From: a virus
DNA length: 36,086 nucleotides
Virus record (IMG/VR): IMGVR_UViG_3300025000_000269
Span: 1-36,086 of that record
Direction: 5' to 3' (one strand)
In this document: piece after piece, positions 1,617 to 36,086 of the stretch
How positions within the stretch are numbered: position 1 is the stretch's first letter
Layout: each line of letters opens with the position of its first letter
Notes under the pieces: model-generated
Database searches by the model: none
What the model was told of the DNA's origin: nothing
The model's input: only the letters and a program-made list of their open reading frames with translations
Translations under genes and position numbers: made by a program

Positions 1617-2036
1617 ATGGTTAAGCAGCTCAACCTCTTCAAGAAGCAGAGCCTTAAAGTCAGCCGGGAATTCAAGGAATGCCTGGCTGACGTGGTGACC
1701 AATAGCGGCTTATCCAGGGCGGAGTTCCTCGACCGGATGAACAGTGTCGCCGACCGGTTCGGCGTGCGGCTGATGAAGGGGAACGGCAACGGCTTAACCA
1801 TGGCCACCTTCGAGAAGTGGCTCAACGTCGAGCAGAGCCAATATGTTCCGCCCTTGGCGGCGCTGACGATCATCTGCGAAGTCGGCAACACGATAGAGCC
1901 CCTGCAGGTCTTTGCGAGAGCGCTCGGCCTGCAGGTTATCGACGAGCCGAAAATCAAGAGATTGCTCTGGGCCGACGCCTACCATGAAGCACGCGAGGCG
2001 CGGAACAAGATGAAGAAACTTGAGGCTGAAATATGA
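1617..2036 (+). CDS. Putative DNA-binding early regulator
   Basis: This 139-aa protein is the first gene of the early operon. The ATG at 1617 has GGAGG 11 bases upstream. Residues 10-75 are helical and basic, with an XRE-like pattern (a helix around VTNSGLSRAEFLDRMN, then LTMATFEKWLN), followed by a hydrophobic segment and a charged C-terminal helix ending KMKKLEAEI. Position and size suggest a regulator of early transcription, comparable to Ner of Mu, although no close family is recognised. Its end overlaps the next start by four bases (ATGA), so the two are translationally coupled. The DNA-binding assignment is inferred from the helix pattern and position only. Confidence 0.6.
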   Translation: MVKQLNLFKKQSLKVSREFKECLADVVTNSGLSRAEFLDRMNSVADRFGVRLMKGNGNGLTMATFEKWLNVEQSQYVPPLAALTIICEVGNTIEPLQVFARALGLQVIDEPKIKRLLWADAYHEAREARNKMKKLEAEI

Positions 2037-2263: not shown

Positions 2264-2913
2264 ACGAAGTAGCCCGTAAAGATGAGGCCCTACCACTATC
2301 AACCCGCGAGCGGGCGCTGCTCGACCAGCTTGAGGCGGATATCGCGCATAATTTAAAAGGATTTTTAAAGGTAGGTTATGCGCTGACAACCATCCGCGAT
2401 CAGGCTCTGTATCGGGTCGATTTCGATACCTTCGAGGACTATTGTCGCGAAATCTGGGACCTGGGTCGCCCCAGGGCCTACCAGCTTATCGACAGCTATT
2501 TGGTCGTAGACAATTTGTCTACCATGGTAGACAAAACCGCCGCACCAAAAGTAGGCGACGGAGACACTCATGTCATCGAGCTGCTGCCAGTAAATGAGCG
2601 CCAGACCAGACCGCTCGCGCCGCTTACTCCTGAAATGCAGATCGAAATATGGACGATGGTAATCGACCGGGCGACTGAAAATAAATGCCGGATTACCGCC
2701 GCGATGGTGCAGCAGTGCGCCGATGAATTGCTGCAGAAACAGATCAAGGATGTGGTCGACAAAGGCAAGCGGACGATCGGCGGAGACGATGAGCCGGGAG
2801 CCTTCGAGCAGCTGGCGCAATCCTTTCTGGCTCTCGCCCAGCGCGAAGCGGAGGGGAAAAAGAAGAAGGTCGCCGGGGTGCTGCGGGAGCTTCTTGAGGT
2901 CCTTGAAGCGTAA
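2260..2913 (+). CDS. DUF3102/ParB-like plasmid-type DNA-binding protein
   Basis: This 217-aa protein begins with an acidic N-terminus, then a conserved-looking block at about 30-80 (LKVGYALTTIRDQALYR, then FEDYCREIWDLGRPRAYQLI), typical of a family of phage and plasmid proteins with a helix-turn-helix around RPRAYQLIDS. A second block around 110-150 (LLPVNERQTRPLAPL) is also familiar from that family. The C-terminal third is charged and helical. The role in the phage is unknown; these proteins are usually linked to replication, partition or transcription. Within the gene, at 2506-2534, lies a pair of overlapping palindromes, one repeated in the late promoter region. The start overlaps the upstream stop by four bases, indicating operon translation. 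Confidence 0.65.
   Translation: MNEVARKDEALPLSTRERALLDQLEADIAHNLKGFLKVGYALTTIRDQALYRVDFDTFEDYCREIWDLGRPRAYQLIDSYLVVDNLSTMVDKTAAPKVGDGDTHVIELLPVNERQTRPLAPLTPEMQIEIWTMVIDRATENKCRITAAMVQQCADELLQKQIKDVVDKGKRTIGGDDEPGAFEQLAQSFLALAQREAEGKKKKVAGVLRELLEVLEA
2506..2534. promoter_or_regulatory. Overlapping palindromes, candidate protein-binding site in a coding region
   Basis: TTGTCTACCATGGTAGACAA at 2515-2534 is a perfect 20-bp palindrome. It overlaps a second palindrome at 2506-2522 (GTAGACAA, T, TTGTCTAC), giving three GTAGACAA half-sites in 29 bases. The 16-mer CCATGGTAGACAAAAC (2522-2537) recurs exactly at 14496-14511 in the late promoter region, again as part of a near-palindrome. Confidence 0.5.
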
Positions 2914-2930: not shown

Positions 2931-5180
2931 ATGATTAGAACGGCAACGGCATCTGAAATCGCTGAAGTAGTAGGTATTTCCCGACAAGCAGCCATGCGGA
3001 AACTGGATCGCGTGAAGGCTCGCTATACTTGGAAAAAAGGCAGTACCGGCTCTGAGAAACATTACTTCGCAACCAGTATTCCCGATGACTGGCGTCTCGC
3101 CCTGGCCGCTAAAGACGCCGTGCCAACTGTCGAACTGCTCGCCGGAGAAGACGCCACGATCGGAGCCGATGCCGCTACCGAGATCCTCGTCACCAGAGCG
3201 GAAGAAAAAGAGCGCACCCAGATCGCCATGGAAGCCGGAATGGCCGCTTTCGAGCGGCTGCCGGAACAACGTAAAAAAGAGGCGCGGGCCAGGTTCTCCC
3301 TGCTGCAAATCTGCGACTCATTCATCAAAGCCGCACGGTTTGAAATCAAGCGATATGCCCGGCGCAGCAAGGTTGGCGATCAGGCCTTCGTAGAGGCTTA
3401 CAACAGCGGCAAGATCGCGGTGTCGGAAGACATCAAGGCAATCATCGGAGAACAGACCAGTTATTCCACTATTAGGCGGATCTCCGACGCCTACTATCGC
3501 CACGGCCTGGCCGGACTGGCCTTCAATTACCACAACCCGAAACGGGGCAGCACGGCGCTTGACGACAAGCAACAGGAAGAGGTCCTCAAGGTCATGTGCA
3601 AAAACCCTGCGACCAGCTCCTTCAATATTCAACGTGCCCTGCAGGGACGGTTCGGGATGGAGGTGCCATCGGCCTCGGTGATCAACAGGTTCCGCAGCCG
3701 GTGGATAGCCGACAACGAGGAATTATGGATGTTTTACACCAACCCGGATGAGTGGAAGTCGAAGCGCATGTTCGCCTTCGGCTCGGCCAGCGATCACGTC
3801 GAGCGTCTTAACCAATTATGGGAGGCTGATTCTACCCCCGCCGATCTGATGCTGACCGACGGGCGGCACTCCATCATCGGCATGATCGACGTCTACAGCC
3901 GCCGGCTTAGGTTCTTCGTGTCAAAGACTTCCAGGGCCGCGTCGGTTGTCGCCCTTATCCGCCACTGCCTGATCGACTGGGGCGTGCCTGAGACGATCAA
4001 AACCGACAACGGCAAAGACTATGTGTCCAATCATGTGGTGCGCGTCCTACACGGTCTGATGATCGAGCAGCGGCTCTGTACGCCCTTCCAGGGCTGGGAA
4101 AAGCCGCACATCGAGCGGTCGTTCAGGACCTTCCTCCACAATATGGTCGAGCTGATGCCGGGATATATCGGCCATAACGTCACGGAGCGCAAGGCGATCG
4201 AGGCCCGGCGCAGCTTCTCCGATCGCGTCATGAGCAAGGAAGGCGGACCGGTCGAGGTCAACCTCTCCTCCCGCGAGCTGCAGAAGATCTGCGACGAGTG
4301 GGTGACCTTCACCTATCACCACAATCCGCATGAAGGCCTCGGCGGCAAGAAACCGATCGATATGGTCCGCAACTGGCGGGAGCCGATCCGCCGGATCAAC
4401 GAGCCCAGGGCGCTCGACATGCTGCTCATGCCGGCGCCGAAAGACGGCGGGATTCGGACTATCCGCAAGAAAGGTATCCAGGTCGAAAACCGTTACTACC
4501 AATCGCCCGAGCTGGCCGGATATGTCGGACAGGACGTCTATGTGCTGCTCGATCCGGCGGACATGGGCACGGTCTACGTCTACACGGTCAATCAGTATGA
4601 AGAGCGGTCTTTCCTCTGCCCGGCCATCGATCCCGAGTGGGTCGGCATCGACCATGCCGGCTTCGCCACCCAGGCCCGCAAACACCAGGAAAAGATCATG
4701 CGGGAGCGCAAGCGCGAACTGACCAAACTGAGCAAGGAAGACGGCCAGCGCGAGGCGTATCAAGACTACATGGATATGCGAAAAAGCCAGGTGGACAACA
4801 TCATCGAATTCCCCCTGCCGGCGACAGAATACAGCACGCCGATGCTGGTCGAAGCGGCCAAGGCGGTCAGTGCGATCGATGAGATCAGGGATGAAGACAA
4901 GGTGCAGAATTCAATGGTGCTCGATCTTGGCAACGACGATTTAGCGGCCGTTCAAATGCCAGTCAAACAAGAGAAGATCGTCATGTTGCGGAGCGATGCC
5001 GATGAGTATGTCGAGCTGCGCAGCAGGCTGAAAATACAGAAACGCAAGCTGACCCAGGCGGAATACGACTGGCTCACCTGGTTTTACAGCAAGTCGACTT
5101 CAGGGGTCAGCTACATGGCCGTTGAGGGCGATCTGCGGAAGAAGATCGGCCTGGACGAACAGGTCCAGGCGGAAGGCTGA
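2931..5180 (+). CDS. MuA-type DDE transposase
   Basis: This 749-aa protein is the transposase that integrates and replicates the phage. Residues 1-50 are a Mu-type DNA-binding HTH (SEIAEVVGISRQAAMRKL), presumably for operators or the enhancer. Residues about 110-265 hold the end-binding helical domains. The catalytic core begins near 295 and shows the DDE triad: Asp300 (LWEAD), Asp359 (IKTDNGKDY) and Glu395 (KPHIERSF). A Mu-type beta-barrel domain follows (about 430-570), and the C-terminus is charged, as expected for contact with the B ATPase. The length is a little above that of MuA (663 aa). GTAAGGGGCAGGTC precedes the ATG. The gene lies directly upstream of the ATPase gene, the usual A-B order. 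Confidence 0.95.
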   Translation: MIRTATASEIAEVVGISRQAAMRKLDRVKARYTWKKGSTGSEKHYFATSIPDDWRLALAAKDAVPTVELLAGEDATIGADAATEILVTRAEEKERTQIAMEAGMAAFERLPEQRKKEARARFSLLQICDSFIKAARFEIKRYARRSKVGDQAFVEAYNSGKIAVSEDIKAIIGEQTSYSTIRRISDAYYRHGLAGLAFNYHNPKRGSTALDDKQQEEVLKVMCKNPATSSFNIQRALQGRFGMEVPSASVINRFRSRWIADNEELWMFYTNPDEWKSKRMFAFGSASDHVERLNQLWEADSTPADLMLTDGRHSIIGMIDVYSRRLRFFVSKTSRAASVVALIRHCLIDWGVPETIKTDNGKDYVSNHVVRVLHGLMIEQRLCTPFQGWEKPHIERSFRTFLHNMVELMPGYIGHNVTERKAIEARRSFSDRVMSKEGGPVEVNLSSRELQKICDEWVTFTYHHNPHEGLGGKKPIDMVRNWREPIRRINEPRALDMLLMPAPKDGGIRTIRKKGIQVENRYYQSPELAGYVGQDVYVLLDPADMGTVYVYTVNQYEERSFLCPAIDPEWVGIDHAGFATQARKHQEKIMRERKRELTKLSKEDGQREAYQDYMDMRKSQVDNIIEFPLPATEYSTPMLVEAAKAVSAIDEIRDEDKVQNSMVLDLGNDDLAAVQMPVKQEKIVMLRSDADEYVELRSRLKIQKRKLTQAEYDWLTWFYSKSTSGVSYMAVEGDLRKKIGLDEQVQAEG

Positions 5181-5255: not shown

Positions 5256-5945
5256 ATGCGTGAAGAATTTGCAATGACCAAAAACGTCCAGCGGTTCATC
5301 CATGGCGTCGAGGTTGTGAAGACTCCCATCAAGGGCCGGATCGGCAACGGGCTGTTCTTCGGCCCTCCCGGTACCGGGAAAACGGATGTTGGCCAGTGGT
5401 ATGCCAGCCAGCACGATGTGCCCTATATCAGGGCGAAAGATATCAGCTCGCGGCGGTCGCTCCTGGCCAATATCGTGGCCGAACTGGGCGAGGCCCCGGA
5501 GTTCCGCACCGATCTGCTGTTCGGTCAGATCGTAGACCAGCTGATCGAGCGGCCCCGGCCGATCATCATCGACGAGGTCGACTATCTCATCAAGGGCGGC
5601 GCTGTCGAGGTGCTGCGGGACATCAACGATATGACCAATACCCCGATCATCATGATGGGGATGGAAAATGTCGATAAAAAACTCAAGCGGTTTCGGCATC
5701 TTTTCGACAGGTTTACGGCGATCGTCAAGTTCGAGTTGTTCGACAAGGAAGAGATCTCGGCGCTCGCCGAAAGCATCTGCTCGGCTAAGTTGTCGAATTG
5801 TGCGGTCGACTACATCTCGACCAGCGGCAAGGGCAAGCTGCGGCTCACCACTACCTGGTTTTCCAGGGCAGAGCAGCTGGCCAGCCGCAACAAGCTCGAT
5901 GTCGTGACCGGCGATCATCTCAGGGTGTTCGAGTCGAGAGGCTGA
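5256..5945 (+). CDS. MuB-like AAA+ ATPase, transposition target-delivery protein
   Basis: This 229-aa AAA+ ATPase should activate the transposase and select target DNA, as MuB does. Walker A is GPPGTGKT at 36-43 and Walker B is IIIDEVDYL around 103-111. Later motifs (IIMMGMENVDKKLKRF) match a sensor-1 region with an Arg-rich segment. It is shorter than MuB (312 aa) because it lacks a long N-terminal DNA-binding region; this shorter TniB/MuB-like form is common in Mu-like phages. The start has GGAGGA 10 bases upstream, after a hairpin separating it from the transposase gene. The next gene starts two bases past its stop. Confidence 0.9.
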   Translation: MREEFAMTKNVQRFIHGVEVVKTPIKGRIGNGLFFGPPGTGKTDVGQWYASQHDVPYIRAKDISSRRSLLANIVAELGEAPEFRTDLLFGQIVDQLIERPRPIIIDEVDYLIKGGAVEVLRDINDMTNTPIIMMGMENVDKKLKRFRHLFDRFTAIVKFELFDKEEISALAESICSAKLSNCAVDYISTSGKGKLRLTTTWFSRAEQLASRNKLDVVTGDHLRVFESRG

Positions 5946-14185: not shown

Positions 14186-14461
14186 ATGGCAAACCAAAGG
14201 CAGCAACTTACTCATGGGGATTTACACCTTGCAGTTCGCTCTATCGAGGAAAAGTTGTGGTACAGGGCGGAACAGAAAGGATTTGGGACAATGGCCAGTT
14301 CTCATGAAATACTCGGGATAATAGAAGAAGAAGTCCATGAATTTAAGATTGAGGTGCATGGAAAGACAGCGCAACATCTTAAAATTGAAGAATTGAAGGA
14401 CATCGCTGTTGCTGCAATATTTGGTATTGCATCAATAAAAAGCGGCGGTGTGGATTGGTAG
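14186..14461 (+). CDS. MazG-like nucleotide pyrophosphohydrolase
   Basis: This 91-aa protein carries the MazG-type helical metal-binding pattern: EILGIIEEEVHEFKIEV, then EELKDIAVAAIFGIASI, with the EExxE and ExxD residues expected to bind Mg. Small MazG-like enzymes hydrolyse dNTPs or other NTPs and are common in phages, where they may lower (p)ppGpp signals or alter the dNTP pool. It is compact, about the size of a single MazG-fold unit. It follows the tail cassette but precedes the late promoter region, so it could be transcribed with the cassette. AT-rich composition matches the cassette. Confidence 0.6.
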   Translation: MANQRQQLTHGDLHLAVRSIEEKLWYRAEQKGFGTMASSHEILGIIEEEVHEFKIEVHGKTAQHLKIEELKDIAVAAIFGIASIKSGGVDW

Positions 14462-14488: not shown

Positions 14489-14508
14489 ATGTCTCCCATG
14501 GTAGACAA
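14489..14508. promoter_or_regulatory. Near-palindrome repeating the early-gene site
   Basis: ATGTCTCCCATGGTAGACAA matches 18 of 20 bases of the perfect palindrome at 2515-2534, and the 16-mer CCATGGTAGACAAAAC is identical at 14496-14511. It lies between genes, just upstream of the lysis and head genes. Confidence 0.55.
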
Positions 14509-14514
14509 AACTTG

Positions 14515-14652: not shown

Positions 14653-15174
14653 ATGCAGTACTCAACTTGTTACGACCGATATTTCGAAGTTTTCTGCTAC
14701 GGATTTTTCCGTCAGATCCTCCCCTGGCAGTGGTTCAAGGCTCAGGCGATAGCGGAGTCTGATCTCGATCCGGCAGCGATCTCGCCTGCAGGCGCGGTTG
14801 GCCTCATGCAGCTCATGCCCGGCACCGCAGCGGAGATGGCCAAAAAACTCGGCATTGAAAACACGCCTCAAGTCCTGCACATCAATATCCGGCTGGGTAT
14901 CGCCTACGACCGGCAATGCTGGGATATCTGGAAGAAGGAATCCGGTATCGAGCGCGTCCGCTTCATGCTCGGCAGCTACAACGCCGGGCCGGGCAGCATC
15001 CTTGATGCACAGCGCCTTGCCTCCAAAAAAGGTCTGCCTACCGACCAATGGCAATCGATTGCCGCCGTTTTGCCGGAGATCACTGGCGACGATGATGCTC
15101 CGGAAACCATTAACTATGTGGCAAAGATCGAGCGTATCTTCAGAGAGCTCACAACCAAGGAGAGGAGCAAATGA
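14653..15174 (+). CDS. Lytic transglycosylase endolysin, SLT-type
   Basis: This 173-aa protein cuts the peptidoglycan to release virions. The SLT fold signature is clear: catalytic Glu35 in AIAESDLDP, then GAVGLMQLMPGTA, and SYNAGPGSI near residue 113. There is no obvious signal peptide, so it likely needs the holin or SAR-like export; the first 24 residues are aromatic and only partly hydrophobic. GGAGGG precedes the ATG at 14653. It opens the lysis block and overlaps the next gene by four bases. Confidence 0.9.
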   Translation: MQYSTCYDRYFEVFCYGFFRQILPWQWFKAQAIAESDLDPAAISPAGAVGLMQLMPGTAAEMAKKLGIENTPQVLHINIRLGIAYDRQCWDIWKKESGIERVRFMLGSYNAGPGSILDAQRLASKKGLPTDQWQSIAAVLPEITGDDDAPETINYVAKIERIFRELTTKERSK

Positions 15175-32429: not shown

Positions 32430-34013
32430 ATGGCAATTGTCACAAAAACACAGCTTGAAAACGCCGCTTTGGATGTTGTCTCCATCGAGCAATTTGTCAA
32501 CGGCGCGGCTGATCTGGGTGGCACTGGTATTGTCACCAGCCGCCTCGGCGAGACCTACCCAACGCTGGCGAAATTGGTTGATGATGCCGAGGCGTGGATT
32601 GCCCTGATCGAGGCAGAGACCGCCGGCGATGCAGTCGCCACTGCTGCGGATCGCGTCCAGACCGGCAACGATGTATTGGCCACCGCCGCCGATCGCGTAC
32701 AGACAGGTCTTGATCGTGCAGAAGCAACCGCTCAGGCGGGTGTAGCCACCACGAAAGCGGGCGAGGCAGACCAAGCATATGCCGCCACGGCGGCAATTTA
32801 TGGAGACATTCAGGCGGTGCAGTCTGCTGTAGCCGAGTCTGCCGCCAATGCGCTGGCGACAGAAGAGGACAAGACGGCCACCGCCGCCGATGTAGCTGCC
32901 ATCACGGCAATCTATGGAGACATCCAGGAAGTGCAAGCTGCGGCGGCCTCGTCTGCCGCCAATGCGCTGGCGACAGAAGAAGACAAAACCGCTACGGCTG
33001 CGGATGCGTTGGCCACGGCCGCCGATGCAGTCTCCACCGCTGCGGATCGCGTCCAAACCGGCAACGATGCGTTGGCCACTGCCGCCGACGCAGTCGCCAC
33101 CGCCGCCGATGCAGTCGCCACCGCCGCCGATCGTGTCCAGACCGGCAGCGATGTATTGGCCACGGCCGCCGATCGGACGCAGACGAGTCTGGATGCAGTC
33201 GCCACCGCCGCCGATCGCGTACAGACAGGTCTTGATCGTGCAGAAGCAACCGCTCAGGCGGGTATAGCTACCACTAAAGCGGGTGAGGCCGCAGCGAGCG
33301 CGGCTCTTATGCCAGCGTTTACTGGCGATGATGTGGGGAAGGTGCTCACTATTGTGGCAGGCCCTGCTGCGGCTTACGAACCACCTATTGCACCAGCCCA
33401 TAACGACATTATCGGCGGGGATATCACGGTCGCCGGAAACACCTTGACGATTAAACCGTGCGGCTGCTGGGACTCGACGCGGACTGTTTGGCTTGAAACG
33501 ACCGAAAATAAAACGATCGTTTTGTCTGGGACGATCAATCAGGACTTCTTTGGGTTCATCGTGAGGTTACTGGATGGTACCTTCGGTCTGAGGGCATATA
33601 CGACTCTGGTGGAACCATTGAGTGACAACCAGATCAATGCTTGGCGGCAGATCACCTATGCCAAGAACAACGGCAGTGGCGTGACGATGCCTTACATCCA
33701 GGTTGGTAATAGGATCGCTTGGATCACTTCAAACAGACCAATACTAACGCCGTCCTTAACTACTTCCTACGTAGTGTATTCTATCTCTTCCTTGCTCCCA
33801 ATAGCTAGTTTGTTCGAGCTATCAATCATCTCATTCGGGGCAACTGGCTGTTATTTAAACGTATCATATGATGGGGTAACACCTATCTATAATTCATATA
33901 ATTCAGACCCCTCTGGACCACAGTGCATAGTTGCTGCTGTGTCTCAGATTTATATGAAAACATCTTCAGGCTCTGTTGCTGTCCATATCATATCAGCAGA
34001 ATTAAGAAGATAA
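32430..34013 (+). CDS. Tail fibre protein with Ala-rich repeats
   Basis: This 527-aa fibre has three parts. Residues 1-65 form an attachment domain (LGETYPTLAKLVDDAEAWIA). Residues about 66-290 are a low-complexity coiled rod with ATAADRVQTGND-type repeats, including a 38-residue unit (IYGDIQ...) that occurs one and a bit times and a 63-bp exact repeat. Residues about 300-527 form a beta-rich tip, AT-richer near the end, likely the receptor-binding part (IVRLLDGTFGLRAYTTLVEPL). ATG 32430 is 11 bases after the hub stop. It is the presumed main fibre of this tail. Confidence 0.75.
   Translation: MAIVTKTQLENAALDVVSIEQFVNGAADLGGTGIVTSRLGETYPTLAKLVDDAEAWIALIEAETAGDAVATAADRVQTGNDVLATAADRVQTGLDRAEATAQAGVATTKAGEADQAYAATAAIYGDIQAVQSAVAESAANALATEEDKTATAADVAAITAIYGDIQEVQAAAASSAANALATEEDKTATAADALATAADAVSTAADRVQTGNDALATAADAVATAADAVATAADRVQTGSDVLATAADRTQTSLDAVATAADRVQTGLDRAEATAQAGIATTKAGEAAASAALMPAFTGDDVGKVLTIVAGPAAAYEPPIAPAHNDIIGGDITVAGNTLTIKPCGCWDSTRTVWLETTENKTIVLSGTINQDFFGFIVRLLDGTFGLRAYTTLVEPLSDNQINAWRQITYAKNNGSGVTMPYIQVGNRIAWITSNRPILTPSLTTSYVVYSISSLLPIASLFELSIISFGATGCYLNVSYDGVTPIYNSYNSDPSGPQCIVAAVSQIYMKTSSGSVAVHIISAELRR
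32679..32741 (+). repeat. 63-bp exact repeat in fibre gene, copy 1
   Basis: An identical 63-base stretch recurs in frame at 33201-33263, 522 bases (174 codons) away. Both encode the Ala-rich rod ending in a Gln-Ala-Gly turn. Recombination between them would remove 174 residues from the rod. Confidence 0.8.
32796..33005 (+). repeat. Tandem 38-residue repeat in fibre rod
   Basis: IYGDIQ starts at 32796 and again at 32910, giving one full 114-bp unit and a second of 96 bp. Both contain SAANALATEEDKTATAAD. The spacing suggests rod-length variation by duplication. Confidence 0.7.
33201..33263 (+). repeat. 63-bp exact repeat in fibre gene, copy 2
   Basis: Identical to 32679-32741. It lies at the downstream end of the repetitive rod. 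Confidence 0.8.
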
Positions 34014-35992: not shown

Positions 35993-36086
35993 AGTGGGTT
36001 TTGGAGGGCGCTGAAAAGGGGGCTCAGGGGAAGGGAAAAAGCTTTGCAAAAGTGGTTTCAAACCTTGCGACAAATGGTCGCAAACC
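35993..36086. other. Right phage end with probable transposase-binding sites
   Basis: There is no gene after the methyltransferase. GGTTTCAAACCTTGCGA at 36054-36070 repeats the core of the left-end sites, and GGTCGCAAACC at 36076-36086 closes the window. Read inward from the right, the end starts GGTTTGCGACC, similar to the GGTTTGA at 21 on the left, so the ends are inverted as expected for a transposon-like phage. The window may stop a few bases before the true terminus. Confidence 0.65.

Follow-up and report, generated by a model that had tools for sequence, protein, structure and literature searches.

A palindrome inside an early gene of a Mu-like phage as the probable parS-like site of the ParT-type ParB relative that the gene encodes

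Why a perfect palindrome should lie within a translated early gene of a Mu-like phage, and which protein might bind it, was investigated in the IMG/VR record IMGVR_UViG_3300025000_000269 (positions 1 to 36,086; this whole stretch of 36,086 nt is referred to as the window). A first-pass annotation had reported a perfect palindrome, TTGTCTACCATGGTAGACAA (2515–2534), overlapped by a second one, together with a 16-mer, CCATGGTAGACAAAAC, identical at 2522–2537 and 14496–14511, and a match to 18 of the 20 palindrome bases at 14489–14508. It proposed a site shared by early and late regions for a phage or host regulator, perhaps the protein encoded around the first copy. All of these sequence features were present, the first palindrome extending to 22 bp (Table 1). 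Only two palindromes with arms of at least 9 bases were found in the window, one at 2514–2535 and the other at the left end of the phage. The half-site TGTCTACC occurred three times (expected 0.46), always within the two palindrome places. Shuffled windows contained no match to the palindrome within three mismatches, and chance is therefore excluded as the source of the window copies. The third half-site, contributed by the odd repeat, doubles as codons of a conserved VVDN motif, and the overlap of this repeat may be a coincidence. As had been stated, the second copy is intergenic, 28 bp past the stop of the ORF at 14186–14461 and ahead of the endolysin gene; it is less symmetrical than the first, one half-site being degraded.

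Table 1. Coordinates of the palindromic sites and of the genes discussed, in window positions
Feature	Position	Strand	Remark
22-bp perfect palindrome TTTGTCTACCATGGTAGACAAA	2514..2535	.	Same position as the palindrome in SCP2 parT
18-bp core TGTCTACC-AT-GGTAGACA	2516–2533		Proposed parS-like site at which P0001 would load
Odd inverted repeat GTAGACAATTTGTCTAC	2506..2522	.	Overlaps the 22-bp palindrome; supplies a third half-site, 2506–2513
Second, imperfect copy ATGTCTCCCATGGTAGACAA	14489..14508	.	Right half exact, left half TGTCTCCC
Gene of the 217-aa ParT-like (CTPase-less ParB-like) protein P0001	2260..2913	+	
Recognition-helix codons RPRAYQLI	2467..2490	+	P71 = column 59, Q75 = column 63; predict half-site bases 4 and 6
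NERQ codons	2593..2604	+	R114 = column 89; predicts the base beside the site centre
Early regulator (phrog_2345)	1617..2036	+	Conserved neighbour in two other Mu-like phages
Transposase A	2931..5180	+	Gene after the ParT-like gene
Transposition protein B-like ATPase	5256..5945	+	
S24-type phage repressor	663..1316	-	Divergent
Lytic transglycosylase / endolysin	14653..15174	+	First identified gene past the second site

Repeats of the AGGTTTGAAACCTTGCG type were also present at both window ends (142–190 and 36053–36075), one of them forming a 21-bp palindrome (148–168); these are probably the end sites bound by the transposase of the Mu-like phage. The ORF at 32430–34013 (527 aa) contained imperfect direct repeats of 151 and 112 nt within 32617–33289.

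The gene holding the palindrome is preceded by phrog_2345 and a 76-aa protein, both early regulators, and followed by transposase A. In three Mu-like phages the phrog_2345 regulator, the ParT-like gene and transposase A came in this order, a single small gene flanking the ParT-like gene on one side or the other, and the gene for transposition protein B came next in both phages scanned for it (the window and L004). ParA (PF13614) was not matched in the six viral records with the gene (the window and five related contigs), and for this reason the phage gene was not classed as a ParATS partition system.

The product, P0001, gave no match in Pfam, PHROGs or NCBIfam at E≤0.01, and other family members had scattered weak matches, for example to phrog_4571 and borfam_49. 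PDB sequence searches returned nothing useful, and no relatives were recovered from IMG/VR proteins with P0001 or the transposase, or from 50,697 GenBank phages with four family queries. Residues 18–161 of a structural model resembled the Noc–NBS, Spo0J–parS and ParB–parS domains with Z scores of 7.2–7.7, which are marginal alone, can be reached by unrelated helical models and need sequence evidence to convince. The structural matches included about a dozen ParB, Noc, Spo0J and SopB entries, and the comparison with the Noc DNA-binding domain on NBS (6y93) gave a Z score of 7.6 and an rmsd of 3.0 over 113 residues. Foldseek alone found no match to the model at E≤0.001, the resemblance to ParB and Noc standing out only upon VIA realignment; the best Foldseek matches, to the Rubisco factor Raf1, were discarded as spurious (rmsd above 10 Å). 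At the C-terminus, where a ParT-like protein would have a dimerization domain behind a flexible linker, helices (179–216) were modelled with a pLDDT of about 60. The N-terminal CTPase domain was missing (no Pfam match; the homologous region starts at residue 13 of the 217), which places P0001 outside the canonical ParB and Noc proteins.

Sequence comparison connected P0001 with ParT of the ParATS system on the Streptomyces coelicolor plasmid SCP2, which is described as ParB-like and devoid of a CTPase domain (Sukhoverkov et al., 2025; PMC12260392). According to the text of that paper, the inverted repeat of 18 bp to which ParT binds lies inside parT itself (ChIP-seq and BLI), and ParT diffuses away from parS independently of CTP; the same text describes an in-gene parS for SCP2 parT alone, and neither a family rule nor a recognition code. 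SCP2.04c (ParT) was matched at E=6e-18 by profile A2, which did not include ParT, and blastp aligned P0001 with SCP2 ParT over 140 aa at 31 % identity (E about 1e-14). P0001 is a member of the ParT family. A perfect repeat, TGTCTCCAATTGGAGACA, was found in SCP2 parT at the same domain codon (76) as positions 2516–2533 of the window, so that the phage site occupies the family position. The letters of parS are not given in the text of the paper (PMC12260392), and this palindrome is presumably the published parS.

The exact 18-mer was present in just five IMG/VR contigs, and four of these carried it in the family gene at the same place, after the conserved helix-turn-helix (RAYQLI) and ahead of LPxNERQxRPL; the site was thus neither absent from relatives nor common by chance. 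The same 18-mer was found in the family gene of a Verrucomicrobiales MAG (L009), and its 16-bp core in that of the viral contig L027. In L007, one of the four contigs, the 18-mer is read in a different frame (NVYHGRQN versus NLSTMVDK), which indicates that conservation acts at the DNA level. Two further loci with the 18-mer (L011 and L018) proved to be an unrelated, longer inverted repeat around the start of a TetR-type gene, and most IMG/VR matches to the 16-mer were one recurring stretch (GACTATCTGCTTATCGG...) outside the family.

A search with a protein profile for which the site was not a requirement gave 103 distinct family members, spread over viral contigs, Cyanobacteriota and Verrucomicrobiota; the palindrome had served to find the seven sequences that seeded the first profile. 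An inverted repeat scoring at least 8 was present in 63 of the 70 close members, compared with 2.0 % of codon-order shuffles, and the palindrome centres clustered around codon 76 of the domain. The palindromes differed widely between members with their symmetry kept (TTTGTGTACCATGG..., TGTCTCCAATTGG..., TTTGCCGACCATTGG..., GAGAACCATTGG...), and were found in members from phages, cyanobacteria, Verrucomicrobiota, Bacteroidota and Actinomycetota. The TGTCTACC and TGTGCGCC sites each occurred in two reading frames, and even and odd centres each fell in two reading phases. When the peptide at each of 61 sites was recoded at random with synonymous codons, no more than 1 % of the codings were as palindromic as the natural sequence at 54 of them, a level reached by none of 62 control segments of the same genes (window peptide: just 2 of 1500 codings). 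The in-gene site is therefore conserved in relatives beyond what coding needs. The region is translated, which is the one point in favour of a palindrome arising by chance or imposed by protein coding, but with so few equally palindromic codings, a frame that varies among relatives and so large an excess over shuffled genes the probability left to that explanation is negligible.

A palindrome was lacking in some divergent relatives, namely a cyanobacterial ‘YPVWRANQVI’ subfamily, several Verrucomicrobiota members and L049. Loci L139–L144 belong to this divergent subfamily (YPVWRANQVI...IPQNEAQARLL) and have no palindrome at the site. In other genes (L056, L060, L067, L130 and L133) the linker was lengthened by palindromes repeated in tandem, two or more per gene, as though the site had multiplied there. 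On the plasmid of Streptomyces sp. NBC_01238, the family domain forms the N-terminus of a protein annotated as DUF5131 (L201, 3989–5344), and the family position is taken by an imperfect repeat, CCGTTACA-AA-TGTAACGG.

The half-sites were aligned from the centre over 9 bases (window half-site, TGTCTACCA) and compared with the proteins. Three protein columns predicted three half-site bases, column 59 predicting base 4, column 63 base 6 and column 89 base 8. With R at column 89 (NE[R]Q), base 8 was C in 35 of 36 cases, whereas N, G, A, S or F went with A (17/17) and W with G. R at column 59 was accompanied by G at base 4 (19/20); R at column 63 (AY[Q/R]) was accompanied by C at base 6 (19/20) and Q by A or G (19/19). 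Protein and site thus co-vary. This code is independent of overall relatedness, since half-site similarity tracked the helix-turn-helix when the remainder of the protein was controlled for (partial Mantel r=0.36, 0/2000 permutations) and did not track that remainder when the helix-turn-helix was controlled for (r=-0.07). Prediction from members less than 50 % identical elsewhere was correct in 47, 42 and 48 of 54 cases for bases 4, 6 and 8, where guessing the majority base would score 30, 18 and 35. In a tree from which the code columns had been left out, the states changed 10–16 times, and independent pairs on supported branches, which were too few for significance in sign tests, included on average none in the opposite direction. 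Nineteen further plasmid members outside the derivation of the code, several of them close to first-set sequences, were predicted correctly at base 4 in 19, at base 8 in 18 and at base 6 in 12 cases, the failures at base 6 involving E and L residues that the rule covers poorly. The SCP2 ParT residues A, R and G predict C, C and A, all three of which were correct. Among the 61 sites, the innermost six pairs had no mismatch, which is partly due to the construction of the search. A relation of the same kind is known from Noc, in which R201, lying outside the recognition helix, recognizes the C next to the NBS centre (C6; PMC7383237), as R114 (column 89) appears to do here.

Given palindromes within the gene across the family and a residue-to-base code in the geometry of Noc, the palindrome is very probably the encoded protein's own loading site, and we put the probability that it is the cognate parS-like binding site of the ParT-type ParB relative whose gene holds it at about 0.88. 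Across the family, the DNA target of the protein is largely readable from its own gene. Any perfect palindrome also folds as RNA, and a 91-nt stretch gave z=-2.1, so an mRNA hairpin through which the gene's own message would be regulated in translation or stability was weighed. It is very improbable, as the would-be loop bases at the centre were complementary in all aligned sites, site bases followed DNA-contact residues, some genomes had intergenic copies and ParT is reported to bind the DNA duplex (PMC12260392).

Further copies were found in some genomes. The exact palindrome recurred in four genomes with a TGTGCGCC-type member (9, 9, 3 and 2 places; reversed control 0), partly between genes and partly in frame within unrelated genes. 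Within one cyanobacterial order, the TGTGCGCC-type palindrome was confined to four of 149 genomes, namely the two that have a matching member and two whose members are of another type. Dispersed identical palindromes of this kind, some in frame in unrelated cyanobacterial genes, might be expected of a small mobile or REP-like repeat inserted in the gene by happenstance. Such an origin is very unlikely for a palindrome that keeps to one fixed place in one gene family across phages and five phyla, has a sequence fitting the contact residues and is held by phages in just one or two copies.

In-frame palindromes of the TGTGCGCC, TGTCCGCC and TGTGTACC types were seen in unrelated genes of cyanobacterial-type genomes, encoding the peptides LCAMAHK, VRHGAQ, LSAMADK and LCTNGTH (L172, L176, L187–L191, L194, L195 and L197–L199 in G009; L169 in G087; L180 in G013). 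The homologous kinase-like genes L188 and L198 carried TGTGCGCC and TGTCCGCC at the same place, which implies that both arms changed together. An exact window-type palindrome was present in two unrelated Hydrococcus genes (L010 and L014, Hydrococcus rivularis; L016), and the only family member found in Hydrococcus had a TGTGTACC site. The idea that co-resident plasmids need different sites for compatibility was dropped, as three plasmids of Nostoc sp. C057 share TGCCGACC half-sites.

For the phage, the proposal of the first-pass annotation divides into two parts. The family-wide in-gene palindromes, the recognition code and the ParT precedent (PMC12260392) give strong support to binding by the protein whose gene surrounds the first copy. 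The link between early and late regions through a two-site regulator was not supported: no second copy was found in the five other phage contigs with the gene, which may be fragments and have one palindrome copy each where the window has two; one half of the 14489 copy is imperfect; and a promoter-like match adjoining it was no better than chance. This copy may be a weak extra site of the ParT-like protein. Several regulator genes lie close by, and the two copies could be operators of another phage regulator (the repressor, the phrog_2345 regulator or a late activator), but plasmids and chromosomal contigs, away from the setting of this phage, also keep the site within the gene, and it co-varies with residues of the ParT-like protein itself, so that this explanation is very unlikely.

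The main functional rival, which does not exclude a loading site, accepts the same protein and site and assumes simple transcriptional autoregulation without clamp-like loading or spreading: the early operon would be repressed or meet a roadblock, and the 14489 copy would modulate the lysis genes. The position among early regulators near transposase A in three phages, the lack of a ParA (PF13614) match in the six viral records and the second site preceding the lysis genes agree with it; the conserved site lies within the coding region and not at a promoter, however, no strong promoter was found beside 14489, and the close precedent, ParT, loads and diffuses (PMC12260392). Autoregulation without spreading is a serious possibility, at somewhat below even odds.

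Under the loading-site explanation, P0001 would be a ParB/Noc-like helix-turn-helix domain without a CTPase domain, acting as a dimer in which each subunit reads one TGTCTACC half-site. The predicted contacts are made by the recognition helix at columns 59 and 63 (P71 and Q75) and, beside the centre, by R114 of NERQ. The site occupies codons of a poorly ordered linker just past the helix-turn-helix that tolerates many peptides, which is how the gene could carry its own target. After loading at 2516–2533, the phage protein would accumulate on the stretch of phage DNA that holds its gene and the neighbouring transposase genes, and the copy at 14489 would serve it as a further, weaker site. With no ParA detected, the protein probably serves the phage in autoregulation or in organizing DNA, and not in classical partition.

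A broader, tentative reading, which we consider a little less probable than autoregulation, is that ParT proteins without ParA form a broad self-addressed class. Where the gene is the loading site, the protein would accumulate on whichever replicon carries the gene; during replicative transposition, Mu-like phages might in this way mark or organize their own copies close to the transposase genes, and members from cyanobacteria might, like Noc, act on several matching sites in the genome.

What had been a peculiarity of one plasmid, a parS inside parT, is likely to be a family rule in phages and several bacterial phyla. The family, for which there is no Pfam model, offers many naturally matched protein–site pairs and a simple residue-to-base code open to mutational testing. 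The results also suggest that Mu-like phages carry a ParB-type loader without the partition ATPase, by which the function of a ParB-like clamp without ParA becomes directly testable.

Among known systems, ParB and Noc share the type of DNA-binding domain with P0001 (Jalal et al., 2020; PMC7383237), but possess a CTPase domain and bind sites of 14–16 bp and fixed sequence, whereas the sites of the ParT-like family are 18–19 bp long, lie in the gene and vary among members. Borrelia PF49 (NCBIfam borfam_49, plasmid replication/partition) showed weak profile similarity to four of seven members, the best E value of 0.0024 being below the curated cut-off. Among plasmids, a ParA gene precedes the family gene in those of Streptomyces, Actinomadura, Emticicia and Spirosoma (Actinomycetota and Bacteroidota), with the site present (the S. 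cellulosae copy is defective in one pair), and a role in partition is thereby supported for these plasmids; of the cyanobacterial plasmid members inspected, none had an annotated ParA neighbour. The closest likeness is to SCP2 ParT, which is homologous, lacks the CTPase domain, has its palindrome at the same place in the gene and satisfies the three-base code. The two differ in length (217 aa for P0001, 325 aa for ParT), in half-site (TGTCTACCA in the phage, TGTCTCCAA in SCP2) and in setting, the SCP2 system having ParA and the phage gene adjoining transposase A in a record in which no ParA was found. Beyond the published ParT, the present comparison adds three Mu-like phages in which the gene lies close to the transposase and ParA was not detected, further matching sites in some genomes, a family-wide rule that the site lies in the gene and a recognition code.
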